Assembly (NCBI GenBank): GCA_028283505.1
Contig: JAPOFX010000002.1
Location: forward strand, 36,855 to 100,854
Reading direction: 5' to 3'
Origin: Candidatus Poseidoniales archaeon
Lineage (GTDB): Archaea; Thermoplasmatota; Poseidoniia; Poseidoniales; Thalassarchaeaceae
Length of the DNA: 64,000 nt
Below, piece by piece: positions 7,842 through 42,733 of this stretch. Numbering within the stretch: position 1 is the first letter of the stretch; each line of letters begins with the position of its first letter. The translations under genes were made by a program, and so were the position numbers. The notes below the pieces were generated by a model. That model was not told where the DNA came from. It saw only the letters and a program-made list of their open reading frames with translations, and did not search any database.

Positions 7842-7914
7842 GGCGAGGGGGCATCGTAAGCGGATTATAACAAGTCGGTATCTTCGTTTTAGCCGAGCGT
7901 TGGAAAATCCAAGA

Positions 7915-9198
7915 CTAAAGATCGGAATTTAGCTCAAATGAGAGCTGATTTGCCCATTCAACGGCATTTAGTGAACCATATCCCGATGTCGAACTATGAT
8001 TTCCTTCCGATGAATCTGGCCTATCTGCTGAGTTTGCCAATGCTCTCTTCACCAAGTCCATCTCTTCAGGGTCGATCTTATTATTATCCCCTGCAATATC
8101 CTCTCCAAATTTCTCGAGCAACAAGGCTAATGCTCCTGAGACGAAAACTGTGGAGTCGCTAGTTCCAGATGAGTAGGCATATGGTGGATTAAGACTTGTA
8201 GAGGCAGTTGAAAAAATATTTACCCCTGGGGCAGTTATTTCCGGTTTTTGGTCAGGATACGTTCTAGGCTGTCCAGTGTATGGGTCTGTTTCCGATCCAG
8301 AAGCGCTGTCCCCCCAGGTCAATCCAGAACTTCTATCGGCACCAACGGCAATTACGCCTCTAATGTTGGCGGGAACAGAGACGTCTGCAGATTCAATACC
8401 AGTATTCCCTGCTGCGGCCACGACAAAAATTCCTGCATCTAATGCTTCTTGGACGGCAGTTACAGTCTCTGTTTCCATTCCCATTCCTTGGCCCGGGTCA
8501 GAACCTAGACTCAGACTAATTATGTCTGCCTCTTGAGTAATCCTACACCATCTTATGGCTAAAGAAACTCTATCCTGTTGACCAGAGGTTCCCTCCGGAC
8601 CTAATGCTAATGCGACCGATATGGACGCTTCGGGTGCAACTCCAACAAAGGTACCATTCGAGGCGATGATTCCTGCCATCATTGTTCCATGGAACTCGCT
8701 TCCAACATCCCGCACTTCCTGGTTTCCTTCTTCGATGAAATCCCTGAATCCAACTAAATTTATTCCAGAGAAGTCAGGATGGCTAACGTCTATTCCTGTA
8801 TCGACGATGCAGACAGATATTCCTGATCCATACAATCCCTCGCCCTGTAATTCCCTGATACCGGTAGTCTCGTATGCCCATTCTGAATCTGGCAATATTG
8901 GAGTCAGATATGAGTTAATGAACGGCCATGAGAGTAGCAGTGCTACCGTCCCGATAGAGAAGAAGACTGCCCCCCATGGCCACAGAGCTTCCTTTAATGG
9001 ATCGAGAGGCCAGCGTAACATGCGCGCTTCTTCGTCTGTCACACCATAGGCAGAGCCGGGATATCCCGGAGCGTGGGGGTCCACTGTAGTCAGCAACCTT
9101 GGGTCCTCTGGCTCGGGCATGAGCTCGAGGCGATCCATTGCGGGCACACTCCCCCCTGGTGCATCGTGCATAAATAACGGTGTATCAGAACGGTGCAT
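7915..9198 (-). CDS. membrane-anchored subtilisin-like serine peptidase (S8); start may be at 9171 or 9138
   Basis: Catalytic blocks VCIVDTGIDVSHPDF, HGTMMAGIIAS, SSGTSDSTVFVSGALALL; N-terminal TM AVFFSIGTVALLLSWPF. Confidence 0.88.
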   Translation of the reverse strand: MHRSDTPLFMHDAPGGSVPAMDRLELMPEPEDPRLLTTVDPHAPGYPGSAYGVTDEEARMLRWPLDPLKEALWPWGAVFFSIGTVALLLSWPFINSYLTPILPDSEWAYETTGIRELQGEGLYGSGISVCIVDTGIDVSHPDFSGINLVGFRDFIEEGNQEVRDVGSEFHGTMMAGIIASNGTFVGVAPEASISVALALGPEGTSGQQDRVSLAIRWCRITQEADIISLSLGSDPGQGMGMETETVTAVQEALDAGIFVVAAAGNTGIESADVSVPANIRGVIAVGADRSSGLTWGDSASGSETDPYTGQPRTYPDQKPEITAPGVNIFSTASTSLNPPYAYSSGTSDSTVFVSGALALLLEKFGEDIAGDNNKIDPEEMDLVKRALANSADRPDSSEGNHSSTSGYGSLNAVEWANQLSFELNSDL

Positions 9199-12100: not shown

Positions 12101-15100
12101 ATCGCCTGAATTGTCCATGAACATTTCCAACGAGAGAGTACCATTCGGAGGCGATAAAATCAATTCCACAGAGAAGTTTGAGGAGTCTATGAACTTTGTA
12201 ACCGGTGACACTTCGATTTCGGAATCTAGTATGTCGAATGTCCATTCACCATCGGGTAGAATCATCTGGAACTTTCCTTCACTGTCCACGGATTTCCTCC
12301 ACGTGACGTCGTAATCGTCATTCTGTGCTGAGACAATTAGCTGTTCCCAGCCCTGAAGATCATCTGTGTAAAAGTTGTTAGCTCTCATGATGCTTACTAA
12401 CCCAAATACATTAGTGCCTGGGGTTGCGACCATGACAAGTTCTTCCATATCAGAGGAGACTGTGAATTTGGTACCATTAACAAGGCCTGCCACTGAGCCT
12501 TCCAGTGTTGCGTCCACAACTGCCCCCTCAGGCAATGTAACTGTAAACTGGCCTGATTCGTTCGTCATTGAGGAGGTTGAGAAACCTTCCCAATCGAATT
12601 TGATTGTTGTATCTGCTCCGATTATTTTTCCGTCATCTGGATTGAAAATCGCTGAAGTGTTTTCCTCGTAGTAAACGATTCCCGATATTTCGACGCTGGT
12701 GACGAAATCAAATTGCTTAGACACGTCAGAGGACATTATGAACTCGTCCCAGACCTGTTTTGAATCTGACAAAGCGTGATCTATAATCCACGAGCCGGGA
12801 GATAGCTCAGCATGGTAAACTCCGGTGTCATTTGAAAACCTCGCATCAACAGGGTCTGAACTGTCATCACTTGAGCTTAGCGTAATTACCAAATCTGGAA
12901 CAGAAGACCCTTGGTCAAACATCTCAAACTCGATATCGTAGGTCTGCGGAACAGGGGAAGGAACAATTACGTTGGCGTAGATTTCCGAGTCAAACTGGAA
13001 CTCCTCAGAAACCTCATTGAATCCATCTTCATCAAGGTCGATAACTACCGAGTAGTTATTTTGGTGAATTGGCCCATGTCCGTAGCTTCCCGAATCATCA
13101 GGATACATCCTACATGGTGCAAACATGGAAATCGAGCAATCTTCTATGGCATCTGAGAAATCTGCTCCTTCGCTGAGTAGAGCCGCGTATCCATCGATCA
13201 CAGACCCCGACTCTGAAATCAATAACCCTGAAATTACATTCCCGGGGATATCGATTTTCTGAGCCTGGGCACTTTGTGTGGCGCTGACAGTGAATACTTC
13301 GCCCACATCAACTCGTGACCCATCTGGAAGAATGGCAGTAATGGCGTAATCGCCTGGGATCATGTCCCTGAGGTGGAAAGTTCCTGCCTGTACCATTGGG
13401 CCACTGAAATCACCAGTTCCAGAGAAAATCCCTGTTCCGTTAATTGTCCCATAGCTTTGCAAGCCTTCGCTAGTGTTAACTTCGAAGAGTCCCGATCCAA
13501 CCAAGGATGAGTGGCTAAGCATCTGGGTGAACTCGGTAGATCCGTTTGAAGTGAACCTTCCACTGGCATTTACAATACCGTCTATGAGAATGTCTCCAGA
13601 TTCCAAATAACAATACGATTCGTTTTCAGGCATGCTATCGTTATCTCCACAATCTGAGATCAATACTTCATCACTAGATCCACTAATTATTGACCCAGAG
13701 AGAGTGCCCCGACCATCAAACATTCCTTCTCCCACGAGTGTGTGGTTATGCTTGATTTCCTGAGTGTAATTCCCAGTAAAGTCAGTAACAGTGGAGATCG
13801 AGGTGGTCCTCACTGTGCCCTCGCCAGTAAACAGGACCTCCCCAATTCCATTGAAAGAGAGGTCTTCGCCAGAAACGGTTCCATCTGAAGTGGCTACTGT
13901 ATATGCCGGCATGGAAATCTGATCCCATTCAGGAATCAGCTCCACATGGGAGCCTTCGACTGCGTCACCGTCAAAGTCATCGGTTGAGGACCAAACAAGT
14001 TGCCCTGTTGCTTGTGCTGGTTCCACGGTCAGAGAGACTTCTATTACCTCCTTTCCGTTTGAATGGCCATCAACTGCTGAAATATTCACGACCTGCTCGG
14101 TAAGCCATGTGGATCCCGAAACGTTGCCTAGAATCCCGGAGACAGGATTGATTGCCCGAGAAACTGTGTTGGACTCTGTTAGGATCTCGGTCATACTGTA
14201 CGTGCCTGACATCATGGTTGAGCGTGCCGATTCCAAATTTGGCTCCCCGAAGAATGCCGTTACTCTAATTTTTCCAGCTGGCGCTCTGAATTCGAATTTT
14301 CCATCCTCGTCTGCGTCAGTTGTTCCTATGGGTATCCAATATGTTCTAGTATCCCTGTCGATTACATGACCATTTTCGTCTGGCACTTCCTCGCCACTGA
14401 AAGCATCCCTCTCGATCAAAAGTCTGGCGTTCGGAACCGGGCCAATTCCATCGAGTTCTACATTGCCCCTAAGAGTTGCTCCGCTGTAGTACTTTAGTAT
14501 CTTGACCTGGGTATTTGCCGAGCCTATGGAAGGGTCGACGCAATCATCGTCAATCTTTTCACCTTCTTCATCCAACTCGCATGGCAGATCGTACCAATTT
14601 GCTAAAACCATGTGGTTCATCATGGCCCCTGGAAGAGGAATCCCTGGCTCTAGGTATGAGCCGGGGGTGCCGTACATGTAGAAGTGAGGGGCGGGCTGAG
14701 CTGCGTCTCCCGGGAGTCCAAGTGATGAGGACCCGTACCCAACATACGTCCTCGCTACCATGGTATCGAAGAAAGCATCTTGATGGTTGTAGTCAATATC
14801 AACCATCTGTATCATTTCACTCGCATCTGAGGCCGCGCCAGATTGTTGTCTGACAATGTCATTGAGGTACTCCTGCTCGTACTCTTCGGCGGTTCTAAGG
14901 ATGATGGGGCCATCAACTCCCCTCTGTGTTTGATAAAGCGTGGATATGTAATCGTCCAAATCCAATCCGGAGAGTCCAGTAGGGGCATGGAAGATTCCTG
15001 TTGTCTGACCCCTGTGGTAGTTGTAGTCTGCATAAAATGACCCTCCAAGCGGATAAAGCCTGTTATCTACCGCAAAATACCTGATATCGTTATTCCTCTC

Positions 15101-18100
15101 AGTAGTCACTCCCAATCCTGCTTCATAATCTTGGACATCATAATATACTTCGCTAGTTATTTTGTGATATAGTTCGACCATCTCGTCCATGTCCAGAGCC
15201 TTAGTTAGGAAAGCTCTGGCCATTCCTAACTTAGAATTCTGCCTGTGGAGGCCGGTAGAAATGTCCTCGAAATCGTCAATTAAATCGGTAGTGTATCTGT
15301 AATTCCCTATCATGTAATGAGTGGTCTTTTCTTGGTATTCGCTAACTCTTCCCCTCATTTCATCAAAGGTGGCCTTGGCTTCGGACTCATTCGATGGCTC
15401 ACCATATGGCTCATTATCAAAGTACACCATCCATGACTCCTCAATTGAAGGAATTCCATTCTCGTCTAGAAGATGCCCCCTGAGTAGGTCTACTGCCCCG
15501 TCATTAGCAACGACGGCCATTGACCTGGCCAGAACGAGGTCTGAGTCCCCAGACCCTAGGGTCATGATGGTCTTGAACTCGTTAAATTGTAAATCTGAGA
15601 ATGAGGATCTGATGACTTCTTCGAAATCTTGGGTCATTTCTCCTGAGTTTGACCTAATATCCCCCTGGGTCAATGTGGCTATGAACAAAGCGAGTGTGTC
15701 TTCCTGTCCTTGTGACAGAAGCATTCCCCCGCTGTGAGGAATTCCTGATTGGAAGTTATCAGCAACCGTTGGATGCTGTCCTTGTGCCAGTGCCTGGAAT
15801 CCGTAATCCCACCATGAGACAAAGGCTGGCCTCTGACTGAATCCTTGATCAGAATCCTGCTCAGAAAGCCAACGGTATGCATCATTCCAGTCGGCACCAT
15901 TGAATCCGGGTCCAAACGTCCCCATGTATCGGAGTCCTGATTCCGGATCATATTCTTCGTCGTCGAGTAAAGAGAAGTCCCCGATGGACCATCTCAGGAA
16001 ATCTGGTGCAATTTCGTAGATTGTCTTGTCGACATCCGTAGCGGCTTCCTCTCCTCTAGGAATGGCTGAGTCGATTCCGTAAGTGGCATGCTGGCTAGCC
16101 ACAAGCAGGAATACGATCATTAGCGCTGGTATTCCGGGGTGCCTTCTTGACGCAGTGAATGTGGATCTTCTCCTAGCGGAGGGGTTACCAATGCCAGCCC
16201 TCCGGTACTCTTTCAGGAAATCTGATGGGTTTGCCGCGCCCCAAAGCATGGCTATTCCAATTCCTCCTAATACTGCCATGGCGGGTGTTGCGTTGAATAT
16301 GAATCTACCAGCGCTCCACGCCATGTATGCGGCAACGATTGTCCAAGAGCCGAGGAAGAGGTGGCTCTGTCTGCCCCGTCTCGCACCTCTCCACAACAAA
16401 ACTACAGCACAAGATATAGCGATAATTGCGACTATCGGCCCATATGAGGCAAACAATACCCCTCTACTTGGTGCCTGTGCCTCACCAATAGTTCCGAAGA
16501 TCTTGTTTTTAGAGAAGTAGAATCCACCTGTGAACAGGACATCCCATCCGTTATACCATTCTAGTTCCTGGAGGATGTAAAGGGTCATGAGAATCGCACC
16601 AAATAGTGCAGTGCCGCTCCCCACCACTAACAGCCATGGTTTGTCCCTGAAAGAGCATGTTACCCATCCAAGAGCCATAGTGAATCCGATAATGTAGAAC
16701 ATTGGTTGGAAACCGCTTGGATCGAAAAGCAAGTCGAGACCAGGCCATATGTAAAACGGAAGGGGGACTAAGAATGCGGTAAACAGCATCTGAAGGGCTG
16801 CGGAAGTGATTGGCAGGCTATCTCTCCCCCTAAACAGGTTGAGGATTGCTTGGACTGAGAATGCAAGGAAAAGTATTCCCGGTCCGTAAACGAAACCCTT
16901 CCATCCCAGTGCTGCTGTGGCGAATGATATTCCTGAAAGTGTGGCGCATGACATTACCAGTGAATTCCTATGCCACATTTCTCTGATGCCCGCGAACAAG
17001 TAAAGCGGATTGCGACTGGTTTCTGAGAAAATCCTCTCGTCCTTTATCCCTTCTACAGCTCTGACCCAGAAATAAAAGGCCATTGAGATGAAGAGAAGTG
17101 CGAACGAGTCGTGATCGGCAAGAGCGAAAGTAGAGTGGCCGATGTGGCCGGGCATGAGTGCGATTAACCAGGCGGTAATTACACCGGCGAGATTGCTGTG
17201 TACTCTTCTCGCAATCCCTGCCAGTGGGAGTAAAATGAGGGCCCCGTATATTGCGGGCATTGCTGAGACGCTCCACCAGACCATCTGATCTCCGGATGAG
17301 TCAGTCAGCCAATTGAGGCCGATCCCTCCCAATGCAATTGACCATGAGAATAAGGGAGGACGGGGATTAATTACGCCCATTGGATAAGACCTATCTGAGT
17401 CAAAGATGAAATGGCTTCTCTCGGCAACAACGTAGTCTATTACCCTCTTCATGTACCATGGGTCGGAGCCTCCGGTCATGTCCCATAGTTGGGTGCCGGA
17501 AGCATTCATCGCAGGGAGGACGTTCCATCCTGTCCTGATGGCAAGGGATACGAACAATGCCATGGAGATCATGATTCCGTAGTAATTTCGGTTCCACCAT
17601 GACCTCAGTGCGCTTGGCTCTCTAAGGGGGGCAGTGTCACCAAAGTACCCTCGAATCGATAGAATGTAAGCGGCGACATTGGACCAGAATATGAGGAAGA
17701 ACCATGCGGCTGCAGATGTACTGCTCCCTGACCCCTCAGGAAGGACTTCTATGCCGAGAGGGTTGCCTATTTCCACTAGCCTTGCAGCTGAGTATAGAAT
17801 CCAGTTGATTGCAGTTAGTGCTGCAAGAACCTGCCACCTCTCAGATCTAAAGAACGCCCACATGAAAATCACAACAGTGGTCGCCATGGCCCAAATCGAG
17901 CCAAGATACTCATGTTCTGAGTACTTCACTAGAGCATTTGAGACCACTTGCCCGTCGACCAGTATGGTATCTCCGGAAATTGACAGGAGCCAAAGAAGAG
18001 GTAACATCTGAACTAAAAAGATTACAAAGAGTGTAGCAACAAGTAGTCGGGATGCTTCTTTGGAGAAATCAAAGGAAGGAAGGCTGGAGAACAAACTTCC

Positions 18101-18718
18101 TTCTCCCGGCTTGTCTAAGCTACCTCTCATGCAAATGGCTAAGATAGCCCCCAATGAAATGGAAGAAGCCAGGAAAGCGAATAGAACCGAGGCCGCCGCG
18201 GATCTCGATGCATCGATCAGTTCCGCCTCTGATCCAGACCATGAGCCTGACCCGAAGCCTGTAGATGCGGCTAAGGAAACTGCCAAGTAGAACCCTATTA
18301 CGGAAGTCAGTATTAGGTTAGATTCTTCTCTTCTGTTTGAATTCACCAGAATCATTGTCGCGATGCCAACTGTGGCGAAGGTAAAGGAAACTAACGTCTC
18401 GGTATCTATGATGTTTGGGAAAAGTTCCGGGATTGCGGAAACAAATGCAATGAGCAGGGAAGAAAATGAAATCTTGAACCGTGCAGGCATCCCGAGATCA
18501 GATACAGCAAGGACCCTACCTACACAGGCCGCAAGTGCTGCCGTTAGTGGGAGGGTCAGGATTCGCAGGTACCCGTCATTCTCCATGTTTCCGTTTGCCA
18601 AAGCCTCGGCCCCCAGGAAAAGTGCCACTAAAGCAGCCAAAATGGCTGAAACTGGCACGAGTTCCCTCATAGGATTCCCGTCTGACTTCGCATCATCTCT
18701 ATCGTTCATCGTTTTCAC
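9185..18718 (-). CDS. giant (3177 aa) STT3-type oligosaccharyltransferase with a ~2000-aa extracellular extension (carboxypeptidase-regulatory-like/NEW3-like beta domains) and C-terminal TM
   Basis: Multi-TM N-terminal region, SDPWYMKRVIDYV, ADHDSF, hallmark SWWDYGFQALAQGQHPTVADNFQSG; C-terminal VSPGEEIQIPMEIRNDGNGDDRFEF (NEW3-like) and TM WIGYLLGGLIIFAIVML-RPRSRR. Confidence 0.85.
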   Translation of the reverse strand: MKTMNDRDDAKSDGNPMRELVPVSAILAALVALFLGAEALANGNMENDGYLRILTLPLTAALAACVGRVLAVSDLGMPARFKISFSSLLIAFVSAIPELFPNIIDTETLVSFTFATVGIATMILVNSNRREESNLILTSVIGFYLAVSLAASTGFGSGSWSGSEAELIDASRSAAASVLFAFLASSISLGAILAICMRGSLDKPGEGSLFSSLPSFDFSKEASRLLVATLFVIFLVQMLPLLWLLSISGDTILVDGQVVSNALVKYSEHEYLGSIWAMATTVVIFMWAFFRSERWQVLAALTAINWILYSAARLVEIGNPLGIEVLPEGSGSSTSAAAWFFLIFWSNVAAYILSIRGYFGDTAPLREPSALRSWWNRNYYGIMISMALFVSLAIRTGWNVLPAMNASGTQLWDMTGGSDPWYMKRVIDYVVAERSHFIFDSDRSYPMGVINPRPPLFSWSIALGGIGLNWLTDSSGDQMVWWSVSAMPAIYGALILLPLAGIARRVHSNLAGVITAWLIALMPGHIGHSTFALADHDSFALLFISMAFYFWVRAVEGIKDERIFSETSRNPLYLFAGIREMWHRNSLVMSCATLSGISFATAALGWKGFVYGPGILFLAFSVQAILNLFRGRDSLPITSAALQMLFTAFLVPLPFYIWPGLDLLFDPSGFQPMFYIIGFTMALGWVTCSFRDKPWLLVVGSGTALFGAILMTLYILQELEWYNGWDVLFTGGFYFSKNKIFGTIGEAQAPSRGVLFASYGPIVAIIAISCAVVLLWRGARRGRQSHLFLGSWTIVAAYMAWSAGRFIFNATPAMAVLGGIGIAMLWGAANPSDFLKEYRRAGIGNPSARRRSTFTASRRHPGIPALMIVFLLVASQHATYGIDSAIPRGEEAATDVDKTIYEIAPDFLRWSIGDFSLLDDEEYDPESGLRYMGTFGPGFNGADWNDAYRWLSEQDSDQGFSQRPAFVSWWDYGFQALAQGQHPTVADNFQSGIPHSGGMLLSQGQEDTLALFIATLTQGDIRSNSGEMTQDFEEVIRSSFSDLQFNEFKTIMTLGSGDSDLVLARSMAVVANDGAVDLLRGHLLDENGIPSIEESWMVYFDNEPYGEPSNESEAKATFDEMRGRVSEYQEKTTHYMIGNYRYTTDLIDDFEDISTGLHRQNSKLGMARAFLTKALDMDEMVELYHKITSEVYYDVQDYEAGLGVTTERNNDIRYFAVDNRLYPLGGSFYADYNYHRGQTTGIFHAPTGLSGLDLDDYISTLYQTQRGVDGPIILRTAEEYEQEYLNDIVRQQSGAASDASEMIQMVDIDYNHQDAFFDTMVARTYVGYGSSSLGLPGDAAQPAPHFYMYGTPGSYLEPGIPLPGAMMNHMVLANWYDLPCELDEEGEKIDDDCVDPSIGSANTQVKILKYYSGATLRGNVELDGIGPVPNARLLIERDAFSGEEVPDENGHVIDRDTRTYWIPIGTTDADEDGKFEFRAPAGKIRVTAFFGEPNLESARSTMMSGTYSMTEILTESNTVSRAINPVSGILGNVSGSTWLTEQVVNISAVDGHSNGKEVIEVSLTVEPAQATGQLVWSSTDDFDGDAVEGSHVELIPEWDQISMPAYTVATSDGTVSGEDLSFNGIGEVLFTGEGTVRTTSISTVTDFTGNYTQEIKHNHTLVGEGMFDGRGTLSGSIISGSSDEVLISDCGDNDSMPENESYCYLESGDILIDGIVNASGRFTSNGSTEFTQMLSHSSLVGSGLFEVNTSEGLQSYGTINGTGIFSGTGDFSGPMVQAGTFHLRDMIPGDYAITAILPDGSRVDVGEVFTVSATQSAQAQKIDIPGNVISGLLISESGSVIDGYAALLSEGADFSDAIEDCSISMFAPCRMYPDDSGSYGHGPIHQNNYSVVIDLDEDGFNEVSEEFQFDSEIYANVIVPSPVPQTYDIEFEMFDQGSSVPDLVITLSSSDDSSDPVDARFSNDTGVYHAELSPGSWIIDHALSDSKQVWDEFIMSSDVSKQFDFVTSVEISGIVYYEENTSAIFNPDDGKIIGADTTIKFDWEGFSTSSMTNESGQFTVTLPEGAVVDATLEGSVAGLVNGTKFTVSSDMEELVMVATPGTNVFGLVSIMRANNFYTDDLQGWEQLIVSAQNDDYDVTWRKSVDSEGKFQMILPDGEWTFDILDSEIEVSPVTKFIDSSNFSVELILSPPNGTLSLEMFMDNSGDLNFSNGTPVSYDFQIIPTSQAGEGMNITFDGNQWTSEGIAEVSLEPGSYIVSVPISDASEGDLFGTMLSTEVLPFDIPLQGGSVERIAAFLPEWRTSISLTNQLGGILANQEFKLTNSETGWTQIQNTDSDGKWIDYLPLGDWIISIDSVINSEGVTESLRATLSPSYEQSSTNLSFSTLESAFVVIHLTEESGDLLEGMSITAHSEDGLGTVEFEPTDSDGSTIASIFPGDWTLSLDSEDSGVKQVLSDTLVQLVSGDNGELNLTSERLAKVGGNVFWDLNDDSEYNIGEGLFNASISVMDGSCMDSSMPDFDSSEYEIQHSDISGSWSVYLGANMDYCVGVSAEGFDDMNMSIELLDEPIDSDSSMAAQLVDVGGQISYIDETQFSLISDSLVLELLPTDEYVRDSVHPTKTIVNGSWHGNWSASVEPGNWIVRVFSEEHGLISMSLIDAEVIDGGFTDSNLVTGGWAMIDTQWFDYEGVSRTLSDVDDPKLTMNLGMGISWVPELDDEGSTRLLLPGGVVDVSSEFRSLQRGLDMTYSGGQAVGVEAGQETPIITVSHSRIPFREISLTVLQGTGGDSTHSAGEDDVLALLDNDTMSFSPVEFVISADYLGHEPLDTFSAQATVPGTDGSDWLVEFHNGSGEWNSSMTFDMGLDGEMSLEDLNVRVTPPNQTVAHSLTGGHNVKISFYTSDGYFEETSVRVRIPQIHGFSVTSLEPVYGVSPGEEIQIPMEIRNDGNGDDRFEFVFDDSELPDGWERTGSTSHTVPPFTATTHSVTVSAPEEATGEYTIYVSVMDKEGNTYPDVEILVRVSNPIVSIVTQQLLAGGENAVSERVNSWVVTVKNEGLVDAIGVQLNATLCSDLACNNEVLSDIEIGDVPANSVVNFDISMDLGGIDPGNYYLNLEINESSVEGTVMPFQPNQGGSVNLVVSSPAVESDSSWIGYLLGGLIIFAIVMLTRPRSRRPNAPF

Positions 18719-29415: not shown

Positions 29416-31077
29416 TTGGATCCGATTTTAGTCGATTTTGGGTGGCTCATCGCCTCTTTTGTTTTCGGAGTGGGACTGGGATGCCTAACTGGCTTGATTC
29501 CAGGATTTCATGTCAATAACGTGGCTCTGATCGCGCTTAGCCTATCGCCGGTTGCAGTGGGAATAGGAATCCCGCTTGATGCCGTGGCAGGAATAATTGT
29601 GGCTTGTGGAACCGTTCACACATTCCTGAACTATATCCCAAGTGCACTTGTTGGGGCACCCGATGACAACATGGCTCTGGCTCTGCTGCCCGGGCATCGA
29701 ATGCTAATTTCTGGACAGGCGGCACAGGGTGTTGCCTATTCCGCAAGGGGTTCCCAGATGGGAATGCTGATGTCTATTCCCTTGTTGATAGTAGCGAGGT
29801 TGATGTTCGGAGAAAATCCTGGGCTAGGGATGTACGAATCCAGTCGAGATATCCTGCCTTGGCTATTACTGGTGATCTCGATATTCTTGATCATGACCGA
29901 GACAACTAGACTTGCCTGGCCTGAATGGATGCAGAGGGCGACAAGAAAATTCAAAATTCCGCTTCCCACCACATTTAGAGTAGATATACCCGTTGGAAAA
30001 TTTAGGTACAAAAGAAGCTGGAATGAGATAGATCTGAGTTTGGGATCTAGTTCCAGGGTAGCTGGAATTCTTGTTGCAACGGCCTTCTTTTTGATATGTG
30101 GATTCTACGGATGGGCGGTATTCGAGTTACCCGGCCGTTCCCCTGTCGGAATGCCGTCTGCTACTCTTCTTTTTCCTGGATTAGCAGGACTTTTTGGCAT
30201 TGCAAACCTAATTGACATCTACGTAACGACCTCCGAAATTCCCCCTCAGAAGCAAAATTGGGAAATGCCCCCAATGAAGCCCCTCGCGGTTCCCACGTTT
30301 CTTTCTGCTGTTGTGTCATCTGTCATGGCAATTCTACCTGGAATGACCGCTGCTCAAGCAACCGTCGTCGTGATGAGTGCTAGGAACCTTTGGGGTAGAC
30401 TAACGGATCCGAATTATATCCCTGCTGACTTTGAACATGGGATACAGCCCGGATTCGTCCCCAAGCAGTCAATTGAGGATATAGCAGGCGACTTGGAAGG
30501 GCTTACAGACGAAGAGAGAGAGCTCTTTGAGATCGCACTCGGGGAAGCCTCTGAATCCAGCCCAGATTTGGATCTTAGTGCCCAAAGTCAGCAACAGGAC
30601 CTAGAAGTGATAGCAATTCTGTCTTCCGTTAATACGGCTGTCACGGTTATGGTACTAGGATTCTTGTACATGGTTGGAAGACCTAGGAGCGGGGCTGCCT
30701 TGGCATTGAACATGATGTATCCAATTGATGGGTGGAATGCCGTGGAGCCCCCCGCAGATTTCGTTAGGCTTCTAGGTATTACCATTGCAGCCGGACTCTT
30801 TGCTGTCCCAGTTATGATAGAAGTAGGAAAAGGGATGCTAAAGATGCATGAGATTGTGCCACTCAGGACCCTTGTGATCTCCGTAGCTGGTTTCGTGAGC
30901 GTCCTTGTCTGGCTTTCGACCGGATGGGTCGGAGTTGGTGTTCTTTTGGTCGGCACAGGTCTAGGACTCATGCCTCCTCGTATCGGAATTAGAAGGAGCC
31001 ATGCAATGGGAATTATATTGGTTCCCATAATGCTCTACACCTTTGCTCAGACATTCGATAGCTTCGGATTTATATAA
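29416..31077 (+). CDS. TctA/COG1784-like multi-pass membrane protein (TTG start)
   Basis: FVFGVGLGCLTGLIPGFHVNNVALIALSL... and a repeated GMTAAQATVVVMSARN half; many TM segments. Confidence 0.75.
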   Translation: MDPILVDFGWLIASFVFGVGLGCLTGLIPGFHVNNVALIALSLSPVAVGIGIPLDAVAGIIVACGTVHTFLNYIPSALVGAPDDNMALALLPGHRMLISGQAAQGVAYSARGSQMGMLMSIPLLIVARLMFGENPGLGMYESSRDILPWLLLVISIFLIMTETTRLAWPEWMQRATRKFKIPLPTTFRVDIPVGKFRYKRSWNEIDLSLGSSSRVAGILVATAFFLICGFYGWAVFELPGRSPVGMPSATLLFPGLAGLFGIANLIDIYVTTSEIPPQKQNWEMPPMKPLAVPTFLSAVVSSVMAILPGMTAAQATVVVMSARNLWGRLTDPNYIPADFEHGIQPGFVPKQSIEDIAGDLEGLTDEERELFEIALGEASESSPDLDLSAQSQQQDLEVIAILSSVNTAVTVMVLGFLYMVGRPRSGAALALNMMYPIDGWNAVEPPADFVRLLGITIAAGLFAVPVMIEVGKGMLKMHEIVPLRTLVISVAGFVSVLVWLSTGWVGVGVLLVGTGLGLMPPRIGIRRSHAMGIILVPIMLYTFAQTFDSFGFI

Positions 31078-31156: not shown

Positions 31157-33793
31157 ATGACTGACAAAAGAACAATGGCAATCGGCATAGGAGCACTGCT
31201 CCTATTGGTAAATATCGGACTGATGGCGACTGGTTTCGTCGATGGTCAAATAGAGAGCACGGTCAAGAGTGCTGTATCTGACGGAATGGATGGAATAGAC
31301 GACAACGGAAATGAGGATTACACCTACGACTATGATGAAGACTGGTTGAATGTATCAGGTCAAAAGGCTTACTTCGCTAATTCCATTTCTAATCTTGAGG
31401 ACGTTCAGGCAAATGGGGCAGATCCAACATACGAGATGATAGGCCCATTCATTTACTACGAGAACACGACTCGCGAGATCTTAGACTTCGATTATGATGA
31501 GAATACGATTACTTACTCTGGTTATGAGATATACGAGTGGTGTGAAGACTGCACTTGGACGGACGATGAAGGCGTGGAGCACGCATCCGTCTCGGGAGAT
31601 ACACTCACAAATCAAGTGAACATTCTCTGGAACACCCAAAGAGTGGCTGGAATGAACACCGGCATTGAGTATCTTGAGATTTTCGCTCAAGGGATGTTTG
31701 CTTCAAAAATGATCGAATTTGACCTCGCTAACAGAGCACCCAGTATCTGGGCCTCCGAGGACATCAGTTCAATGGTGACAGAAACTACCACCGGGGATAT
31801 GGTATTAGCCGGCGCATATCTTGCGGCTGGAGGAGACAGTGAAATGGCAACATCCTTCCAGAATCTCGAACAGTCTGTAATGTATGATGCGGTGGACCCC
31901 TCCACGGGTGTTTGCATAGCTCTTACCTGTGACATCGGTCCGGTACTGGTTGCCGGAATGGGAGCCCCTGATGGAGGCCAAGTAACGCAGACCAGAGCAG
32001 CACTATATGGGTATGCAGATAAAGTTGAGCCAGAACTATCTGCGATTGACCTAGGAGTGTATGCCTTAGCGGCTAACGCCTTCTCGACAAGAGGAGGTGG
32101 TGACGAGATTAACAATGAGACTCCTCAGCTGAGAGAGAGATTCCAAGAGGTGAGCGGTGTAAATATAATCAATCCAGAAACACTTGACTTCCTTCTTTTC
32201 GATGACTTCAATGGACTACTTGGAACCTTCACACTATCTGGCGTCACCCTCCCTGGAATGGTAGTGGGCCTACTGCTGCCTCTACAGAGCGGTGACTACT
32301 TCACTGCAATGGAAACCTACAATGTCGGACTACTTACGGTAGTCGATATCGCCACATATGCCGAGACATGGGTCGGTTTGGGCCTCTTAGGCTCGCCCAC
32401 TGAGTTCGAAAATATCCTACTTGGGGGCCAAGGGACCCTCACCGCTCCGGAATGGTGGATGGGTGCCTTCGGAGGGCTTGACTCATTGGGTGGAACATAC
32501 ATCGAGGTTGGACTAAACATCGGGGATTATGTTGGAATGGCTTCGCTATCTGCTGAAAAGGCTGACTTCATTCTGAACGACGATGATATAGGTTTGAAGA
32601 CCACTTTCTCAAGAGAGTTCGTATACGGAGAGCTAGCTGGGGTGTCGCTTCCAGATGAGAATGGAGTCCAGTCTGTTTGGGATGACGCATATGTCGCGAA
32701 TCTGTATGACATCGATGAGAGCTCAGCGGGTGCACTGAGATCGTGGGTCGGAGATTTCGTTTTCGAGGTTGTAATGCCCGTCCTCATTACCTTCCTCAGT
32801 GGTAACACCGAGTATTACTCGATGCCGATAACGCACTGGCTCTTCGGCTTCAGTGATGCCGCGAGCGCATCCTTCGGATTCTTCCCATGGGTTAGCTTAG
32901 AGACCAATCTGACTTACTATGGGTCAGATGGGATAGGCACCGGCGACTTCTCGGTGTACAAGATGAGCACTGCCGGAGAGACCAAGGGCCAGAGGCTTGC
33001 TCAGGGGTACATCAACTCTGACGGAGATGGCCTTTGCGACTATGACTACGATCAGTCCGGTAATTTCCTCGGTTACGATTTGCCTTGCGAGGCTGGGCAA
33101 GTATACGGAATGACCGAGCATCTGACTTGGAGAGCCCCTCACAGAGAGGACGGTTCACTGGGTCTGCTTTCTGACCACGCCGGAAATACAGATACATCGC
33201 TGATGGGAACCATTGGCGGCGTCTCCGCTCCACTTGCAAGCCCTAACGACCCTTTCTTAGTGAACGTCGCGGGATACGCAATTGCAACCTCTGAAGTTGG
33301 TGATGAAGTTGAATTCAAAGGAATCACTATGGTAGAGCACAGTGTTAGCTTGGATCCAGCCAATACACAAATCCAAGGTAAAATCCTAGGTGCAGGAAAT
33401 TGGGTTGATGCACTTCCAGGTGCATTGCCTGTTTACCTTGGTGCCGACATTGACATGAAAGTCGAGCCAATTTCTAACGCAGTGATGTATGGTAAGGTGA
33501 AAGTGACTTTCCATCTGGACATGAGGGGAACTGGCTCATCTGACCCCGTCATAGGGGTAGACACAATGCCAGTGTTCGAGATTCACACCTCCAGCGAAAT
33601 AGCTGATGACGATGCATCTGACTTCAATAGCCAGGTAACGGACAATATGGGTCCGTTCGGTTGGACGAACTTCGGCGGTAGTGTAGGGGGAACGCTTGCT
33701 ATCATATCGTACGTTCAAGCATTGTTCTACGTCCTTGGGATAGGGCTTCTTGGCTACGGTGGAATAGTCATGAAGGATGAAGACGGGAACTAG
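31157..33793 (+). CDS. CD36/LIMP-2 (SCARB) scavenger-receptor-like protein; two terminal TMs and a large ectodomain
   Basis: N-TM MAIGIGALLLLVNIGLMATGFV; GADPTYEMIGPFIYYE; DIDMKVEPISNAVMYGKVKVTF; SSEIADDDASDFNSQVT; C-TM ISYVQALFYVLGIGLLGYGGIVM; six ectodomain Cys. Confidence 0.8.
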   Translation: MTDKRTMAIGIGALLLLVNIGLMATGFVDGQIESTVKSAVSDGMDGIDDNGNEDYTYDYDEDWLNVSGQKAYFANSISNLEDVQANGADPTYEMIGPFIYYENTTREILDFDYDENTITYSGYEIYEWCEDCTWTDDEGVEHASVSGDTLTNQVNILWNTQRVAGMNTGIEYLEIFAQGMFASKMIEFDLANRAPSIWASEDISSMVTETTTGDMVLAGAYLAAGGDSEMATSFQNLEQSVMYDAVDPSTGVCIALTCDIGPVLVAGMGAPDGGQVTQTRAALYGYADKVEPELSAIDLGVYALAANAFSTRGGGDEINNETPQLRERFQEVSGVNIINPETLDFLLFDDFNGLLGTFTLSGVTLPGMVVGLLLPLQSGDYFTAMETYNVGLLTVVDIATYAETWVGLGLLGSPTEFENILLGGQGTLTAPEWWMGAFGGLDSLGGTYIEVGLNIGDYVGMASLSAEKADFILNDDDIGLKTTFSREFVYGELAGVSLPDENGVQSVWDDAYVANLYDIDESSAGALRSWVGDFVFEVVMPVLITFLSGNTEYYSMPITHWLFGFSDAASASFGFFPWVSLETNLTYYGSDGIGTGDFSVYKMSTAGETKGQRLAQGYINSDGDGLCDYDYDQSGNFLGYDLPCEAGQVYGMTEHLTWRAPHREDGSLGLLSDHAGNTDTSLMGTIGGVSAPLASPNDPFLVNVAGYAIATSEVGDEVEFKGITMVEHSVSLDPANTQIQGKILGAGNWVDALPGALPVYLGADIDMKVEPISNAVMYGKVKVTFHLDMRGTGSSDPVIGVDTMPVFEIHTSSEIADDDASDFNSQVTDNMGPFGWTNFGGSVGGTLAIISYVQALFYVLGIGLLGYGGIVMKDEDGN

Positions 33794-33887: not shown

Positions 33888-36800
33888 ATGCAGGGAGGAC
33901 CGAGGTGGTTCCCATTACTTGTCGTAGCCTCCATGCTGGCCAGCGTTTCGGGAGGGGGGATGGCATCCGGGCAGGAACCCGGAACCAGTGGAAATGAATG
34001 TGTAGACGTCTGCATAAATGAAGTGATGACGAACGCAGATGGCTCGGATCAAGGCATCTTCCCACAAGGGGAATGGGTTGAGCTATACAATTCTGGATCC
34101 GACGGGGTGAGTCTTGAAGGATGGGCGATAGTGGACATAGGTGGATGGTATCATCCAATTAATCAACAAAGCTGGGTGGGTTTCGAAGACCTTGACCCGC
34201 CATTCATCCTACAACCAGGAGAGTTCGCAGTGATTGCGGAGAATGAAATCGGGACTCTTAGGCTAAATAATGGCGGGGAGACGATTTTTCTTAGAGACGC
34301 CGGGAACATGACGATTGATGAAATCGAGACAGGAGTTGCATCCAATGGCGTATCCAAAATTCCAGATTCCACAAATAATGACGGAATATGGGTAGATTCA
34401 GAAACACCGAGTCCTGGATATCACAATCCTGGCAACAATGGAGGAGCGGGGTCGATTGATTTAGAGATATCATGGTGGGATGGAGAATATGATGTAAAAT
34501 TCACAAGAATTATGCCGGGGGAGGTACCGGGAAGAAGCAATGATTGGTTCGAAATAAGTAATACGGGGGACTTTGAAGTTGATATCTCTGGTTGGAACGT
34601 AACCAAGATGGGGCCATCAGGGCCATTCCATTCGACTATACTTTCATTGCAAATACCACCTCAATCATCGGTGGTAATCTCGGAGAATCCATACAACCTT
34701 TTTCTTGACGGGGGGATTGAGGCGCTGGATGCCAATCAGGTTCTGAGTGCCCCTCCGTGGCTTGTAAATTCAGGGGGATCTTTGATACTTTACGAGCCCA
34801 ATGGAACTGCTGTAGACTCGGTCGTATATGGAGGGGGGATAGCAGAAATAGACGGATGGGAGGGGCCTGCGATATCTGTCCCAGGAGACGGATCTCCTGG
34901 ACTTATCCTAATCAGGGGATTGGGATGTGGGGACTATCCAGATACAGACTCTGGTTCGGATTGGGAATCTAGGTGGGTAAGAATTGGTGCTTCTACGTTC
35001 TGTGATGGGGGAGAATTTTCTACTGAAGATGACTCCAGGGCGCTGGCATCTATTGGCCCTGATACGGCTTTCAGTGATCTGATTCAGTGGATAGAGTCGG
35101 CAGAAAATGATATTCACTTGCACGTTTATCAATTTATGAGTCCTGATTTAACCAATGCACTAATTTCGGCTATGGGGAGAGGCGTGGAGGTAACCCTGTT
35201 GCTTGAGGAGGGGATTCTAGATGGCTCTTCCACAGTGGACAATCAAAGGGGACATGCCCAAGCGATCCATGATGCCGGCGGATTAGTTCTATGGATGGAG
35301 GACCCCTCGGAAATCAGCTCACCTTACAGGTACATCCACAGCAAAGTGGGAGTAAAGGACTCGGAGAGTGTATGGATATCATCTGGGAACTGGAAAGATA
35401 CTAGTTTACCCCCCGATCGGATCGGTAACAGGGAGTGGTCCCTAATCTTGGATTCAGAGAATCTAGCTGACCTAGTTCTATCGAGAATGTCCTGGGACGA
35501 GAATCAAAACCATTTGCACGTATCAGCACATCAATCTAGACATTCGCCTTCGAGCGATTGGGAAATGGGTACGCCCTCTCTGACACATGATATTTCCGAA
35601 CCTGTATACCACCAGGGTCCTTTCTCAGGCAAACTGGTTACATGCCCCGATGACTGTGTAGATTCGATAGTTGAGATGATTTCCTCATCGGAAACCTCGA
35701 TTGACCTATCTGTACAATACCTAGATTTGGACTGGTATTGGGGATTCGGGGATAACCCGATTATCGAGGCACTACATGATGCGGCAATCAGAGGAGTGGA
35801 GATCAGGCTAATTCTAAACGGATTCTACGCGGAGTGGGATGAAGAGATTAGGAATACAATCCACATGTTTAACACCGAATGGAATGGTTCCCAGGGACTC
35901 GATACAACAGCACGGCTAATGTCCACGTCGGATAATATAACCAAGCTACACAACAAAGGCGCGATAGTTGACGGTTCGAGTGTTCTCGTAGGGAGCATGA
36001 ACTGGGGATCAAGTGCTGCTCTTAGAAACAGGGAGATGGGGATTCTCCTTCATGATCGATCTTTAGCCTCAAACTTCGCTGCGTCGTTCGAGGAAGATTG
36101 GTCCAGACTAGATTCAAAAACCGACTCTGACGGAGACCTCATGCCTGACTATTGGGAAGATTTGTATGGTTTGAACCGGCACTCCGCCGCGGTAATTGGA
36201 ACTGCCCTCAGCGAGCAATCAATGGACCCAGACTTGGATGGTCTTGATAATTTGAATGAGTACCTTCTAGGTGGGGACCCTCTTGTTAGCGATACCGATG
36301 GTGACTGTATTCTAGACGGTAGTGAGCGCGACTTTGCTCAGAGTGTTCTTCGTTCTCCAAACATAGCGATGCTTTCCAGTGATGCCGATGAAAATGGGAT
36401 ACTTGATGGCATCCAGTGGGGATGTGATGATATCCCAACAGGAGGGGGCCCGTTGGAGAATGATACTACGGATGAGGGCAACACAACAATTGAGGAAGAA
36501 GAGGAAGACTCAGGATTCATCAACATCAGAGAAGACGCAATGTCCAGACCGGGTGCTAGACTTTTGTTTGGATTGGTTATACTGTCTGTTTTTTCACTGA
36601 CAGTTTCCGCATGGATCTCTTTCAGAAAGCCGGCTAACTCCACCGAGGAGATACTAATTGATGACTCGGGATACAGATTCGATCAGATTGAAAATGAATT
36701 GGCAATCCTCAAAGGAACAAGCTTTGACAAAACATCTCCCGACTCCAGATCATTAACCAAAGGGAAGGACGATGGGGAACATGGCCGTATCATCCTAGAT

Positions 36801-36908
36801 GGTTTCGGTTTCGACAGGACCAAGACTACCCGGGATGAAATCCAATGGAGATTGGATTCAGGACAAACCATGGATGAGATAAGGGCTGATCTCAGCGAGG
36901 AAGAATGA
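33888..36908 (+). CDS. secreted lamin-tail-domain + phospholipase D-family protein, C-terminal TM anchor
   Basis: Signal peptide; CINEVMTNADGSDQGIFPQGEWVELYNSG (LTD-like); two PLD HxK sites YIHSKVGV...SSGNW and LHNKGAIVDGSSVLVGSMNW; TM near aa 890. Confidence 0.85.
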   Translation: MQGGPRWFPLLVVASMLASVSGGGMASGQEPGTSGNECVDVCINEVMTNADGSDQGIFPQGEWVELYNSGSDGVSLEGWAIVDIGGWYHPINQQSWVGFEDLDPPFILQPGEFAVIAENEIGTLRLNNGGETIFLRDAGNMTIDEIETGVASNGVSKIPDSTNNDGIWVDSETPSPGYHNPGNNGGAGSIDLEISWWDGEYDVKFTRIMPGEVPGRSNDWFEISNTGDFEVDISGWNVTKMGPSGPFHSTILSLQIPPQSSVVISENPYNLFLDGGIEALDANQVLSAPPWLVNSGGSLILYEPNGTAVDSVVYGGGIAEIDGWEGPAISVPGDGSPGLILIRGLGCGDYPDTDSGSDWESRWVRIGASTFCDGGEFSTEDDSRALASIGPDTAFSDLIQWIESAENDIHLHVYQFMSPDLTNALISAMGRGVEVTLLLEEGILDGSSTVDNQRGHAQAIHDAGGLVLWMEDPSEISSPYRYIHSKVGVKDSESVWISSGNWKDTSLPPDRIGNREWSLILDSENLADLVLSRMSWDENQNHLHVSAHQSRHSPSSDWEMGTPSLTHDISEPVYHQGPFSGKLVTCPDDCVDSIVEMISSSETSIDLSVQYLDLDWYWGFGDNPIIEALHDAAIRGVEIRLILNGFYAEWDEEIRNTIHMFNTEWNGSQGLDTTARLMSTSDNITKLHNKGAIVDGSSVLVGSMNWGSSAALRNREMGILLHDRSLASNFAASFEEDWSRLDSKTDSDGDLMPDYWEDLYGLNRHSAAVIGTALSEQSMDPDLDGLDNLNEYLLGGDPLVSDTDGDCILDGSERDFAQSVLRSPNIAMLSSDADENGILDGIQWGCDDIPTGGGPLENDTTDEGNTTIEEEEEDSGFINIREDAMSRPGARLLFGLVILSVFSLTVSAWISFRKPANSTEEILIDDSGYRFDQIENELAILKGTSFDKTSPDSRSLTKGKDDGEHGRIILDGFGFDRTKTTRDEIQWRLDSGQTMDEIRADLSEEE

Positions 36909-39256: not shown

Positions 39257-42200
39257 TTAGTTCAGAGGATAATCTGTTGTCCAGTTTACAGGTCCGAACC
39301 AAACTGATCCCTCTTCGTTTGTTGCCACGAGTCTTCCGTAATATTCAGTACCACAACAGGCCAGTCCGGTGATGGTTCGTGAGTGATTGCCAACTGTTGT
39401 ACTCCCAAAACTAACAGTGCCCTCCCAGCCCGATGTCTGATTTCCCATATCCGCCCTCCCATAGTAGAAAGTCAGAGTGGTGTTCGTCCCATTGTCGTAG
39501 GTATCCCATGAAATTGTAGCGGAGTTAGAATCTGAAGGATCGTTGGAAGAGAGATTTCGGATAATAGCCGAGTAGGCAAAGTACTCCCCGCGTAAGGGAT
39601 CCTCTACCCAAACTGGGAGATGGGCCAAAGCATCGAAAGTCGCCTGGGTAAGTGGGAATCCCCACGCTTGATGGTATGGAGCTAGATTGTATCCTGTAGA
39701 ATTTGAAATGTGAAGGACCCAATCATTGAATTCTTCTGAATCGTCTGACGGAACCTCATCGTCTGAAAGATTGTAGTAGACCTTTAATGCCTCGGTAATC
39801 GGTCCCCATCCCCATTTTTCCTTGATGATTAGGTATGTATCCAGTGCCACCCATACTGACCAGTTTGAAATGTCTGGCGAATCTTCGAAGTAGCTCCTCA
39901 TCCGTGATTCCCTTTGATCGGGATTGATCGCTCTATGACCTTCAATGCCCACTAATTCTTCCATCAAGTAAACGCTAGCGAAATTGCAACTAGTCTCGGT
40001 TGTCCCTGGAAGAGTGGAGGGCATCCATTGGTGATTATGGCCAAGTTCGTGAAACATGCCCCAATCCCCATTCTCAGACATATAAGATACATTGACTACA
40101 TCAGGGACGCTGAGATCATGGGCCATGAAAGGGTAACCAGAGTGCATCCATCCAGCTGAAATCTGGGCATCAAATACAGCCCTCTCCACTCTTGGCCATG
40201 GGAGGAATCCGTAGAGTTCGTGTTCCATTCCCAGTGCTTCGTCCCACCAGTACATCAAATCGTCCGGGTCTTCTAAATTTCTTATTTCATTGCTGGGTAC
40301 TGTTAGGATAAACTGGTCACTGCCAATTTCCGCCCAGGGCGCAGGATCATGACGATACTCTTGTAGCCATTGGGAAACATCTGTTTGACCATGGATATAG
40401 GTCGGGGCCTTTACGGCATTGGATATTGTGACTTGAAAATCGCCCAATGTGGATCCGGGGGATATGGCGATGTATATCGTCCCTCCAAAGGCATTGCCGA
40501 CCTTCATGTGTTGTTGATCGACATGCCACCATCGCACAATCTGGGGGTGGCGATGCAACTGACTTTTGCCCCACAAGTTGTCACTGTGAGCACCCACAAG
40601 AACGTATGTATCCGAGTCGACTGCAACAGGAGGAAGTGTCACATTAACCACCTCACCGGCCGCGGCATACAATCCGGTGCTCATTCTGATATGGGATCTA
40701 GCCTGGGAGTAGCCAAAATTACTCGGCAGGCCACTCTGATTTCCGTTGATATCAACCGTTCGAGATATTCTGGTGGCGTTTGATGGGACCTCTCCCGGGA
40801 ATTCAATATGGCTTGGATGGGAGGGTAATTCATCGGCTGGAAGATTTTGTGTCAGTGCGGATTCAACTCTCAACAACGTATCTGCAACTGGGTCCTCGCC
40901 CATGTTATGGCCTACATCTTGCCAGAGGGTACCATACTCAATGACTGACCAACCTGTGACGTTGACCACCTCCCTGAGCGGTGACCAGAAATCATCGAAG
41001 TCTAGAGTCACCACTGCCGTGCAAACAGATAGGATCTCATCAGCAACGGCGGCATCTTCATTAGATAAGGAATGATTGTTTATCCTATCTCCCCTTATCG
41101 CCTCTATAGCCGCTTTTGGGGTAGATAATTCATGTGGGAGATTGGACAAATCTACACTATTGCGGCCCCATGCATCAGAAACAAATAACCCTGTTGTTTT
41201 GGCGATCTTGTTACCTGGATAGTTATCCCCTAAACCTGTATTCGAGTAAGACCAATACCAAGCATGACCCCCCATGATAAGGCCACCTCCATTAAGCATG
41301 AAATCAACTAAGGCCTGATTATCTTGGTCATCGTGTCCATTCCAGAACTCATCAAGCAAGCAATCCAGACCAGAGAGATCTGAGGGCGACACAGATAGGT
41401 GAACATTGTGGCCTTGGGCGTTTAGCTCTTCCTCAAAGTCATCGAATCCAGCCCCATAAGCAAGTCCAACATTTGCATTCTCCCCACAGGCCCACTCAAC
41501 GGCACGCAGGGAAAACTCAGTCTCCTGCCCTCCATGGCCATCGACCCAACTCTCGTGACCGTATCCGAGCATCTTACCCCGACCGACGTGACTGGCCGAG
41601 ATAACCGGAACATTAGACCCATAGCCACCTTCCGCGAATCCGACAGGGAATGCGAACTCACCAATAGGTAGTATAGGGGAAGGCCATCCTGCCCAATTAG
41701 TCTCATCCATATCCCTTAGTAAGTCTGATTGGTCTGCTCGAAGATCGTGAATCGCAATCCAGATCATTAGCTCTGACGAGCCTCCCGAGTTGTTTGCCCA
41801 GATAGTGTATCTCATCCATTCTGTCCTCTCTGTTGGAGTGCCCCGGATATCCCCTGAATGCAGTGACAACCCCGCAGGAAGATCCGGATAAATCTCCCAT
41901 GTTTCAATATTAGGGCCATCATTTTTTACTGGGATGTTGATACTTTGATTAGAACGAAGCGCAAATTGGTCACTGGACCAGGATATTTCTCCTGGAGGAG
42001 GACTCAGGATAGTTAATTCCAGGGTAGTGTAAGCTGAGCCTCCTGAATTATTCGCCCATATGGTATGATTTGATTGCCCTAAAATTCTGACTATCCCTGA
42101 GATGAAACCATCCTCTGAGATTTCCAACTCACTAGGGAATGGAGGGTCGACAGACCATGTTTTAACGGGACCTCCTAGCAACATTGGAGGACCGATTTCA

Positions 42201-42733
42201 CAGTATGAGTCCAATTCGCATGTAAGAGTTTTACTTGGATACTGAATAGACTTTGGCACGGGGGCAAGAATTACGATCTCTAAGACGGCGGTAGCAGAGC
42301 CCATCGCGTTGACCCCTGTGATTGTGTGAGAGACGCCCTCTGACTCCACCAAAGGAGTTCCCGAGATTACCCCCGATTGGTCTATTTCCATTCCGATAGG
42401 AAGTTGTGGACTGACCGACCAACTCTCAGGCCCATCACCCTGGAATGATGGGGTTAGTGACTGTATCTCAGTACCTAACACCAGTCCGATCGAGTCCTCC
42501 CCATAGGAGAGTTGTGAAGGTGGCTCCTTGGGCCTGCAAGAGTCGCCGGTGAATACCTCCTGAATTGTGCAGTCTTGAAGGGTTACGATCTCTACGATAC
42601 AATCTGGGTGGGTTGGGTGTGTCTGGCAGTCTAAATTTTCAAGTGGCTCGGTCTCACTTTCAAATAGACCCAAACAGCCCGAAGTAAGCATCAAAACACA
42701 CAACATCAGTGCAGTTGGGCGTAATCGACGCAT
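39257..42733 (-). CDS. secreted lipoprotein with three Ig-like (He_PIG-type) repeats and an M60-like (gluzincin) metallopeptidase domain
   Basis: Lipobox-like LMLTSGCLG; repeats WSVSPQLPIGMEIDQSGVISGTP / WSVDPPFPSELEISEDGFISG / WEIYPDLPAGLSLHSGDIRGTP; GMFHELGHNHQW with ..MEELVG. Confidence 0.85.
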   Translation of the reverse strand: MRRLRPTALMLCVLMLTSGCLGLFESETEPLENLDCQTHPTHPDCIVEIVTLQDCTIQEVFTGDSCRPKEPPSQLSYGEDSIGLVLGTEIQSLTPSFQGDGPESWSVSPQLPIGMEIDQSGVISGTPLVESEGVSHTITGVNAMGSATAVLEIVILAPVPKSIQYPSKTLTCELDSYCEIGPPMLLGGPVKTWSVDPPFPSELEISEDGFISGIVRILGQSNHTIWANNSGGSAYTTLELTILSPPPGEISWSSDQFALRSNQSINIPVKNDGPNIETWEIYPDLPAGLSLHSGDIRGTPTERTEWMRYTIWANNSGGSSELMIWIAIHDLRADQSDLLRDMDETNWAGWPSPILPIGEFAFPVGFAEGGYGSNVPVISASHVGRGKMLGYGHESWVDGHGGQETEFSLRAVEWACGENANVGLAYGAGFDDFEEELNAQGHNVHLSVSPSDLSGLDCLLDEFWNGHDDQDNQALVDFMLNGGGLIMGGHAWYWSYSNTGLGDNYPGNKIAKTTGLFVSDAWGRNSVDLSNLPHELSTPKAAIEAIRGDRINNHSLSNEDAAVADEILSVCTAVVTLDFDDFWSPLREVVNVTGWSVIEYGTLWQDVGHNMGEDPVADTLLRVESALTQNLPADELPSHPSHIEFPGEVPSNATRISRTVDINGNQSGLPSNFGYSQARSHIRMSTGLYAAAGEVVNVTLPPVAVDSDTYVLVGAHSDNLWGKSQLHRHPQIVRWWHVDQQHMKVGNAFGGTIYIAISPGSTLGDFQVTISNAVKAPTYIHGQTDVSQWLQEYRHDPAPWAEIGSDQFILTVPSNEIRNLEDPDDLMYWWDEALGMEHELYGFLPWPRVERAVFDAQISAGWMHSGYPFMAHDLSVPDVVNVSYMSENGDWGMFHELGHNHQWMPSTLPGTTETSCNFASVYLMEELVGIEGHRAINPDQRESRMRSYFEDSPDISNWSVWVALDTYLIIKEKWGWGPITEALKVYYNLSDDEVPSDDSEEFNDWVLHISNSTGYNLAPYHQAWGFPLTQATFDALAHLPVWVEDPLRGEYFAYSAIIRNLSSNDPSDSNSATISWDTYDNGTNTTLTFYYGRADMGNQTSGWEGTVSFGSTTVGNHSRTITGLACCGTEYYGRLVATNEEGSVWFGPVNWTTDYPLN

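Follow-up and report, generated by a model that had tools for sequence, protein, structure and literature searches.

Reviews treat the CD36 family as eukaryotic, trace it to the last eukaryotic common ancestor and discuss it together with phagocytosis (Boohar et al., 2023; PMC10715195). A gene of a Candidatus Poseidoniales archaeon of the family Ca. Thalassarchaeaceae raises the question of whether the family also has archaeal members and, if so, what they might do. The gene lies in a stretch of 64,000 nucleotides, referred to below as the window, from a genome bin of 1.3 Mb. Among the archaea of the surface ocean, Ca. Poseidoniales (Marine Group II) is the most abundant order. A sequence-only reading of the window had proposed that the 878-aa product of this gene, here called P0001, is a CD36/LIMP-2 (SCARB)-like receptor; this proposal was to stand or fall with a CD36 profile hit and with a predicted fold containing the CD36 barrel. 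The gene and its parts, in window coordinates, are these:

31157..33793 (+), coding sequence for the archaeal CD36/SR-B-like protein (878 aa), with ATG at 31157; the coordinates include the stop
31172..31228 (+), N-terminal transmembrane helix, aa 6-24 (hydropathy 2.13; modelled helix 4-39)
31349..31618 (+), N-terminal beta part of the CD36 core, aa 65-154 (Pfam match, LIMP-2 alignment, modelled strands 65-154)
31628..32800 (+), expanded all-helical apex, aa 158-548 (modelled helices 158-548; between CD36 profile positions ~134 and ~139)
32807..33652 (+), C-terminal beta part of the CD36 core, aa 551-832 (PF01130 matches of the C-terminal half, collinearity with LIMP-2 and CD36, modelled strands 598-814)
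32813..32857 (+), hinge (modelled strand 553-557 and helix 558-563; alignment; W-L-x-G-x-x-D at aa 561-567)
33695..33751 (+), C-terminal transmembrane helix, aa 847-865 (hydropathy 2.08; modelled helix 845-877)

The start at the ATG is kept across orthologs. A TTG start at 31043 was ruled out, as the orthologs back the ATG and a start at the TTG would make the gene overlap its upstream neighbour. Comparison with relatives 88-89% identical to P0001 gave a dN/dS of about 0.03-0.05, with dS high or saturated, indicating strong purifying selection.

Relationship to CD36 and LIMP-2

Class B scavenger receptors (SR-Bs) have been defined operationally by a CD36 ectodomain with two flanking membrane helices (Boohar et al., 2023; PMC10715195), and the archaeal protein falls within this definition. 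The CD36-like topology proposed at the outset, with a membrane segment at each end, is borne out by hydropathy and by the modelled terminal helices; hydropathy and both of the structural models described below put a transmembrane helix before and after the ectodomain and leave only short tails. Hydropathy finds both helices in 35 of 38 aligned members of the family, P0001 included. The N-terminus is probably cytoplasmic, judging from K4-R5 ahead of the first helix, these positive charges being the sole basis on which the membrane orientation was assigned.

The Pfam profile of CD36 (PF01130) matches P0001 at aa 77-131 with 31.2 bits (1e-7), above the curated cut-off of 26.5, and CD36 is the sole Pfam family reported for the protein when matches up to E 10 are allowed. 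The N-terminal beta part contains the block N-x-E-x-V...P-x-x-E-x-x-G-P-F-x-Y, and the first of four resemblances to CD36 that had been noted by eye, all of which are real, lies inside this match. The 38 aligned full-length members, drawn from two families of Ca. Poseidoniales, all match the profile (E <= 0.01, best 1.6e-20), the highest score being the 73.5 bits of L031. The C-terminal half alone matches in 8 of the 38 (best 2.5e-8). Several relatives show two separate stretches of the CD36 model in the correct order; in these proteins, profile positions ~134 and ~139 are about 400 residues apart. In control searches the CD36 model had no match in any of 14 well-known genomes, in any genome of the phylum outside Ca. 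Poseidoniales, or in any of the 288 other genomes scanned in a second, bacterial phylum.

The converse search gave the same answer. A profile of the archaeal family run against all PDB sequences retrieved only LIMP-2 (2.5e-6) and CD36 (2e-4) up to E 10, and a larger profile built from 83 sequences again retrieved only these two up to E 1. As a single-sequence query P0001 had no match in the PDB, and CD36 was reached by profiles only. In the C-terminal half the profile alignment with LIMP-2 and CD36 is collinear over 214-221 columns (E 0.0015-0.0028), with an hhalign probability of only 11-17%; this weakness is attributable to the use of just two verified eukaryotic sequences, which were checked against PDB chains 4q4f and 5lgd. 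The three later resemblances, said to occur in CD36 order, are in register with LIMP-2 and CD36 in this alignment, which covers nearly all of the C-terminal half. The clearest of the sequence matches to LIMP-2 is the hinge, in which W561, L562, G564 and D567 are invariant in the archaeal alignment and the LIMP-2 counterpart reads LLWGYKD. The W-L-x-G-x-x-D hinge is equivalent to motif M6 of the eukaryotic SR-Bs (PMC10715195).

Structures were predicted with AlphaFold for P0001 (38 sequences, pLDDT 81.9) and for L044, a relative about 28% identical to it (83 sequences, pLDDT 88.3). Both models consist of beta strands, a long all-helical part and further beta strands, flanked by the two terminal helices. 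When they were compared with the PDB by Foldseek, the top matches were 5lgd for P0001 (5.0e-6) and 4f7b for L044 (8.0e-8), each with a probability of 1.00, and in both searches every match below 0.001 was CD36 or LIMP-2. Superposition on these structures is loose, with target-normalised TM-scores of 0.36-0.53 for P0001 and 0.38-0.44 for L044 and an rmsd of 5-9 angstrom for most matches of both models. The asymmetric antiparallel beta-barrel of CD36 is thus recognized by Foldseek, though TM-scores reach only 0.36-0.53, and CD36 and LIMP-2 are the best matches in the PDB to both predictions. A search of viral protein structures gave no match to the model.

The archaeal protein therefore shares with the eukaryotic SR-Bs (CD36/SCARB3, LIMP-2/SCARB2 and SR-B1; PF01130) the two terminal membrane helices, the N-terminal GP(Y/F)xY block, a hinge that reads WLxGWxD in place of LLWGYxD, a collinear C-terminal beta part, a helical apex at the same insertion point, and its best profile and fold matches. 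It differs from them in its archaeal host, in an apex about 390 aa longer than that of LIMP-2 and in an identity of only about 10-16%. Profile and fold together uphold the CD36/LIMP-2-like identity first proposed, and the protein is almost certainly an archaeal member of the CD36/class B scavenger receptor family. Convergence, in which only a general beta-barrel fold would be common to both and the likeness of motifs would be due to chance, could be argued from TM-scores mostly below 0.5 and from sequence identities of 7-16% in structural alignments, but it is very improbable given matches above cut-off in two parts of the protein, in many members and in the right order, with clean controls, and given a hinge motif and insertion site that coincide with those of the eukaryotic SR-Bs.

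The helical apex

The stretch between the first conserved block and the hinge occupies 421 profile columns in the archaeal family and 28 residues in LIMP-2, a net gain of about 390 aa. The large insertion suspected from sequence is therefore present, at a size somewhat greater than the 350 aa or so that had been estimated. No relatives of the apex were found among Pfam and PDB sequences, and its alignment with CD36 was not significant (E 0.3). It diverges faster than the core, with a mean column identity of 33% compared to 45%; conservation is higher in the C-terminal beta core.

Eukaryotic SR-Bs of more than 500 aa always expand at this place, by extra helices beside a hinge that combines a short strand with a helix (PMC10715195). 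The archaeal model shows the same arrangement, with a helical apex at alpha4/alpha5 followed by the M6 hinge (strand 553-557, helix 558-563), and the archaeal apex sits exactly at the expansion site of the ligand-sensing apex of the eukaryotic proteins. Similar cases are LmpA of Dictyostelium and the SR-Bs of Phytophthora, Tetrahymena and Aurelia, which likewise have ectodomains exceeding 500 aa, keep the barrel and carry, as does the archaeal protein, additional helices at alpha4/alpha5, between motifs M4 and M6 (PMC10715195). These protist and cnidarian expansions are lineage-specific and of separate origin (PMC10715195).

The length of the apex varies. In one genus, that of G322 and G394, the proteins measure only 725-736 aa, and their CD36 matches (1.3e-16 and 2.4e-15) are stronger than that of P0001. 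Two such short-apex members are encoded at L177:1472-3646 (-) and L178:1238-3445 (+). As a structural or phylogenetic link, they are the most promising candidates.

Next after CD36 and LIMP-2 in both structural searches came mycobacterial LmcA (PDB 7n3v, 7shw), whose Pfam family we take to be PorA (PF11271). None of 60 relatives exceeded the PorA cut-off; the best score, 22.4 against 29.5 bits, was found in the short-apex genus. This actinobacterial protein has a CD36-like asymmetric beta-barrel with internal cavities and has been described as similar to CD36 and LIMP-2 but lacking their three-helix bundle (PMC8972800). Unlike the archaeal protein, it has neither a three-helix nor a larger apical domain.

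The cysteines had also been offered as evidence for CD36. P0001 does contain six of them in its ectodomain, at 129, 132, 253, 258, 627 and 644, in agreement with the count given. As a CD36 signature they were ruled out, since their number and positions differ between relatives: anywhere between 0 and 13 cysteines are present, and the closest relatives have in common only the local pairs 129/132, 253/258 and 627/644, which are unlike the CD36 bridges. The pattern of metazoan disulfide bridges 1-3 is absent from the archaeal proteins. It is also absent from non-metazoan SR-Bs and is thus no requirement of the family (PMC10715195).

Occurrence in Ca. Poseidoniales

The family profile was found in 115 of 127 sampled Ca. 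Poseidoniales genomes, about 91%, and in none of 263 other genomes of the phylum, which included a third family of the same class. The 12 genomes of the order with no match include all sampled members of three small genera; the gene is therefore not strictly essential. Named matches belong to Euryarchaeota, Poseidoniales and Thalassarchaeum records. Contamination by eukaryotic DNA was ruled out: the gene has archaeal neighbours in conserved order, is present in about 91% of the order and occurs in apparent single-cell genomes, as judged from the record names AG-404-A19, AG-422-I18, AG-457-A01 and AH-287-M04. Two apparently bacterial occurrences, L145 and L150, in bins labelled Pedosphaera sp. 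and Gemmatimonadetes, were judged to be misbinned archaeal contigs. L145 sits inside the archaeal gene tree, and the other genomes scanned in that phylum all lack the gene; both are likely binning errors in public genomes. Viral carriage of the gene was searched for and not found.

The gene tree has two main types, which split along the two families, and some basal genera of Thalassarchaeaceae carry the other main type or both. Because the gene is near-universal in the order and its tree is divided by family, it is ancient in Ca. Poseidoniales. Divergent paralogs, one of each main type, are found head to head in L028 at 5422-8028 (-) and 8148-10664 (+), about 120 bases apart. Such head-to-head pairs are also present in L049, L022 and L021.

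These findings extend the CD36 family to a second domain of life, in which it is nearly universal in one order. A search of the openly licensed literature that covered archaea, Marine Group II, Asgard and the Pfam accession gave no paper on archaeal CD36 among those listed. Automated database annotation may already label these proteins CD36, since their sequences exceed the Pfam cut-off. We regard these proteins as an archaeal branch of the SR-B family with an apex of its own.

Possible function and gene neighbourhood

In CD36 and LIMP-2, lipids travel through a tunnel (PMC10715195; PMC5712522, PMC6684646). The archaeal homolog is anchored in the cytoplasmic membrane by its two terminal helices and probably faces outward; its extracellular part is the CD36 beta core, split by some 390 extra, all-helical apex residues. 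We infer that the enlarged apex would bind ligand, either free fatty acids, acyl lipids or lipid-rich particles of phytoplankton debris, and that the core would pass hydrophobic molecules through an internal tunnel to the outer leaflet, in the manner proposed for CD36, SR-B1 and LIMP-2. Acyl chains would then cross the membrane, be activated by an acyl-CoA synthetase and enter beta-oxidation. The general picture of a CD36 homolog with a ligand-binding apex and a lipid-conducting core is, in our judgement, rather more probable than not, and the same measure of confidence applies to the binding or transfer of lipid.

Membership of the family does not by itself imply a lipid ligand, since CD36 proteins are known to bind particles and other proteins as well. 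Of the possible cargoes, fatty acids are favoured: their degradation is encoded by all Poseidoniales genera (PMC6461757), beta-oxidation genes are highly transcribed (PMC9723583), and the host genome contains four acyl-CoA dehydrogenase domains that exceed the cut-off, together with one AMP-binding enzyme. Fatty-acid uptake is accordingly put forward as a tentative physiological role. The protein is a concrete candidate for such uptake in archaea that have no outer membrane. Catabolism is encoded by the Ca. Poseidoniales genomes, and no receptor for fatty-acid uptake is named in the papers cited here.

The protein might instead be a carrier of envelope biogenesis, similar to LmcA, that moves endogenous lipids or lipid-linked glycans through or along the envelope and imports no food. 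The rank of LmcA among the structural matches, its placement, as a lipid-cavity protein, in lipoglycan synthesis (PMC8972800), and a few weak matches of family members to PorA (E 8.9e-5 at best) all point in this direction, and near-universality in the order would suit a housekeeping role. We nevertheless consider this role unlikely, since the PorA matches are all below cut-off while those to CD36 reach 73.5 bits, and since LmcA has no apical bundle, which in the archaeal protein is very large and conserved. The absence of the gene from relatives of the same class also speaks against a general function in archaeal envelopes.

LIMP-2 binds beta-glucocerebrosidase and CD36 binds thrombospondin. 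The archaeal protein could likewise be an adhesin or protein receptor, whose apex would bind proteins, glycans or the surfaces of particles and whose core would merely be a stalk. The apex is the place of ligand binding in mammalian SR-Bs (PMC10715195), attachment to particles has been proposed for the order, whose genomes contain thrombospondin and flotillin genes (PMC6461757), and the more rapid divergence of the apex would fit such a role. The C-terminal beta core, however, is more conserved than a stalk would need to be, and no gene for a binding partner is consistently linked. This possibility is given as little weight as that of an envelope carrier, and the preferred reading remains that of a receptor that takes up lipid.

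It could be supposed that the archaeal proteins, the eukaryotic SR-Bs and bacterial LmcA all descend from one prokaryotic lipid-transfer family, and that external fatty acids enter archaea of the surface ocean through members of this family, which there have a new ligand-binding domain at the apex. This combined proposal is a doubtful one; if true, the scavenger receptor family would not be a eukaryotic invention.

The neighbourhood was considered as a clue to function and was dropped, since no neighbour is constant; for the same reason context adds little to function. A constant lipid-gene neighbour was not found, and neighbours differ between subclades. Directly upstream, at window positions 29416-31077 (+), is a gene for a TctA-type transporter, which adjoins the CD36 gene in many, not all, Thalassarchaeaceae genomes. 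A functional link between the two is unproven, and the CD36 gene is kept where this neighbour is missing. At 33888-36908 (+) there is a 1006-aa protein with lamin-tail domains and two phospholipase-D-like (PLD) domains, which adjoins the CD36 gene in part of the family. The TctA, OB-fold and PLD neighbourhood is restricted to one family and is not always there. In other subclades the neighbours are AIR synthase and an esterase, or 3-hydroxyacyl-CoA dehydrogenase. A 3-hydroxyacyl-CoA dehydrogenase/enoyl-CoA hydratase is encoded near the CD36 gene at L025:11283-12815 (+) and L045:2863-4290, with a glycosyltransferase in between.

Two other genes of the window may be mentioned. A single frame of 3177 aa at 9185-18718 (-) carries an STT3 oligosaccharyltransferase domain (PF02516) within its N-terminal quarter, and its C-terminal extension is very long. 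An M60 enhancin-like peptidase of 1158 aa is encoded at 39257-42733 (-); an M60-like peptidase has been reported to be almost exclusive to MGIIb (PMC6336850).
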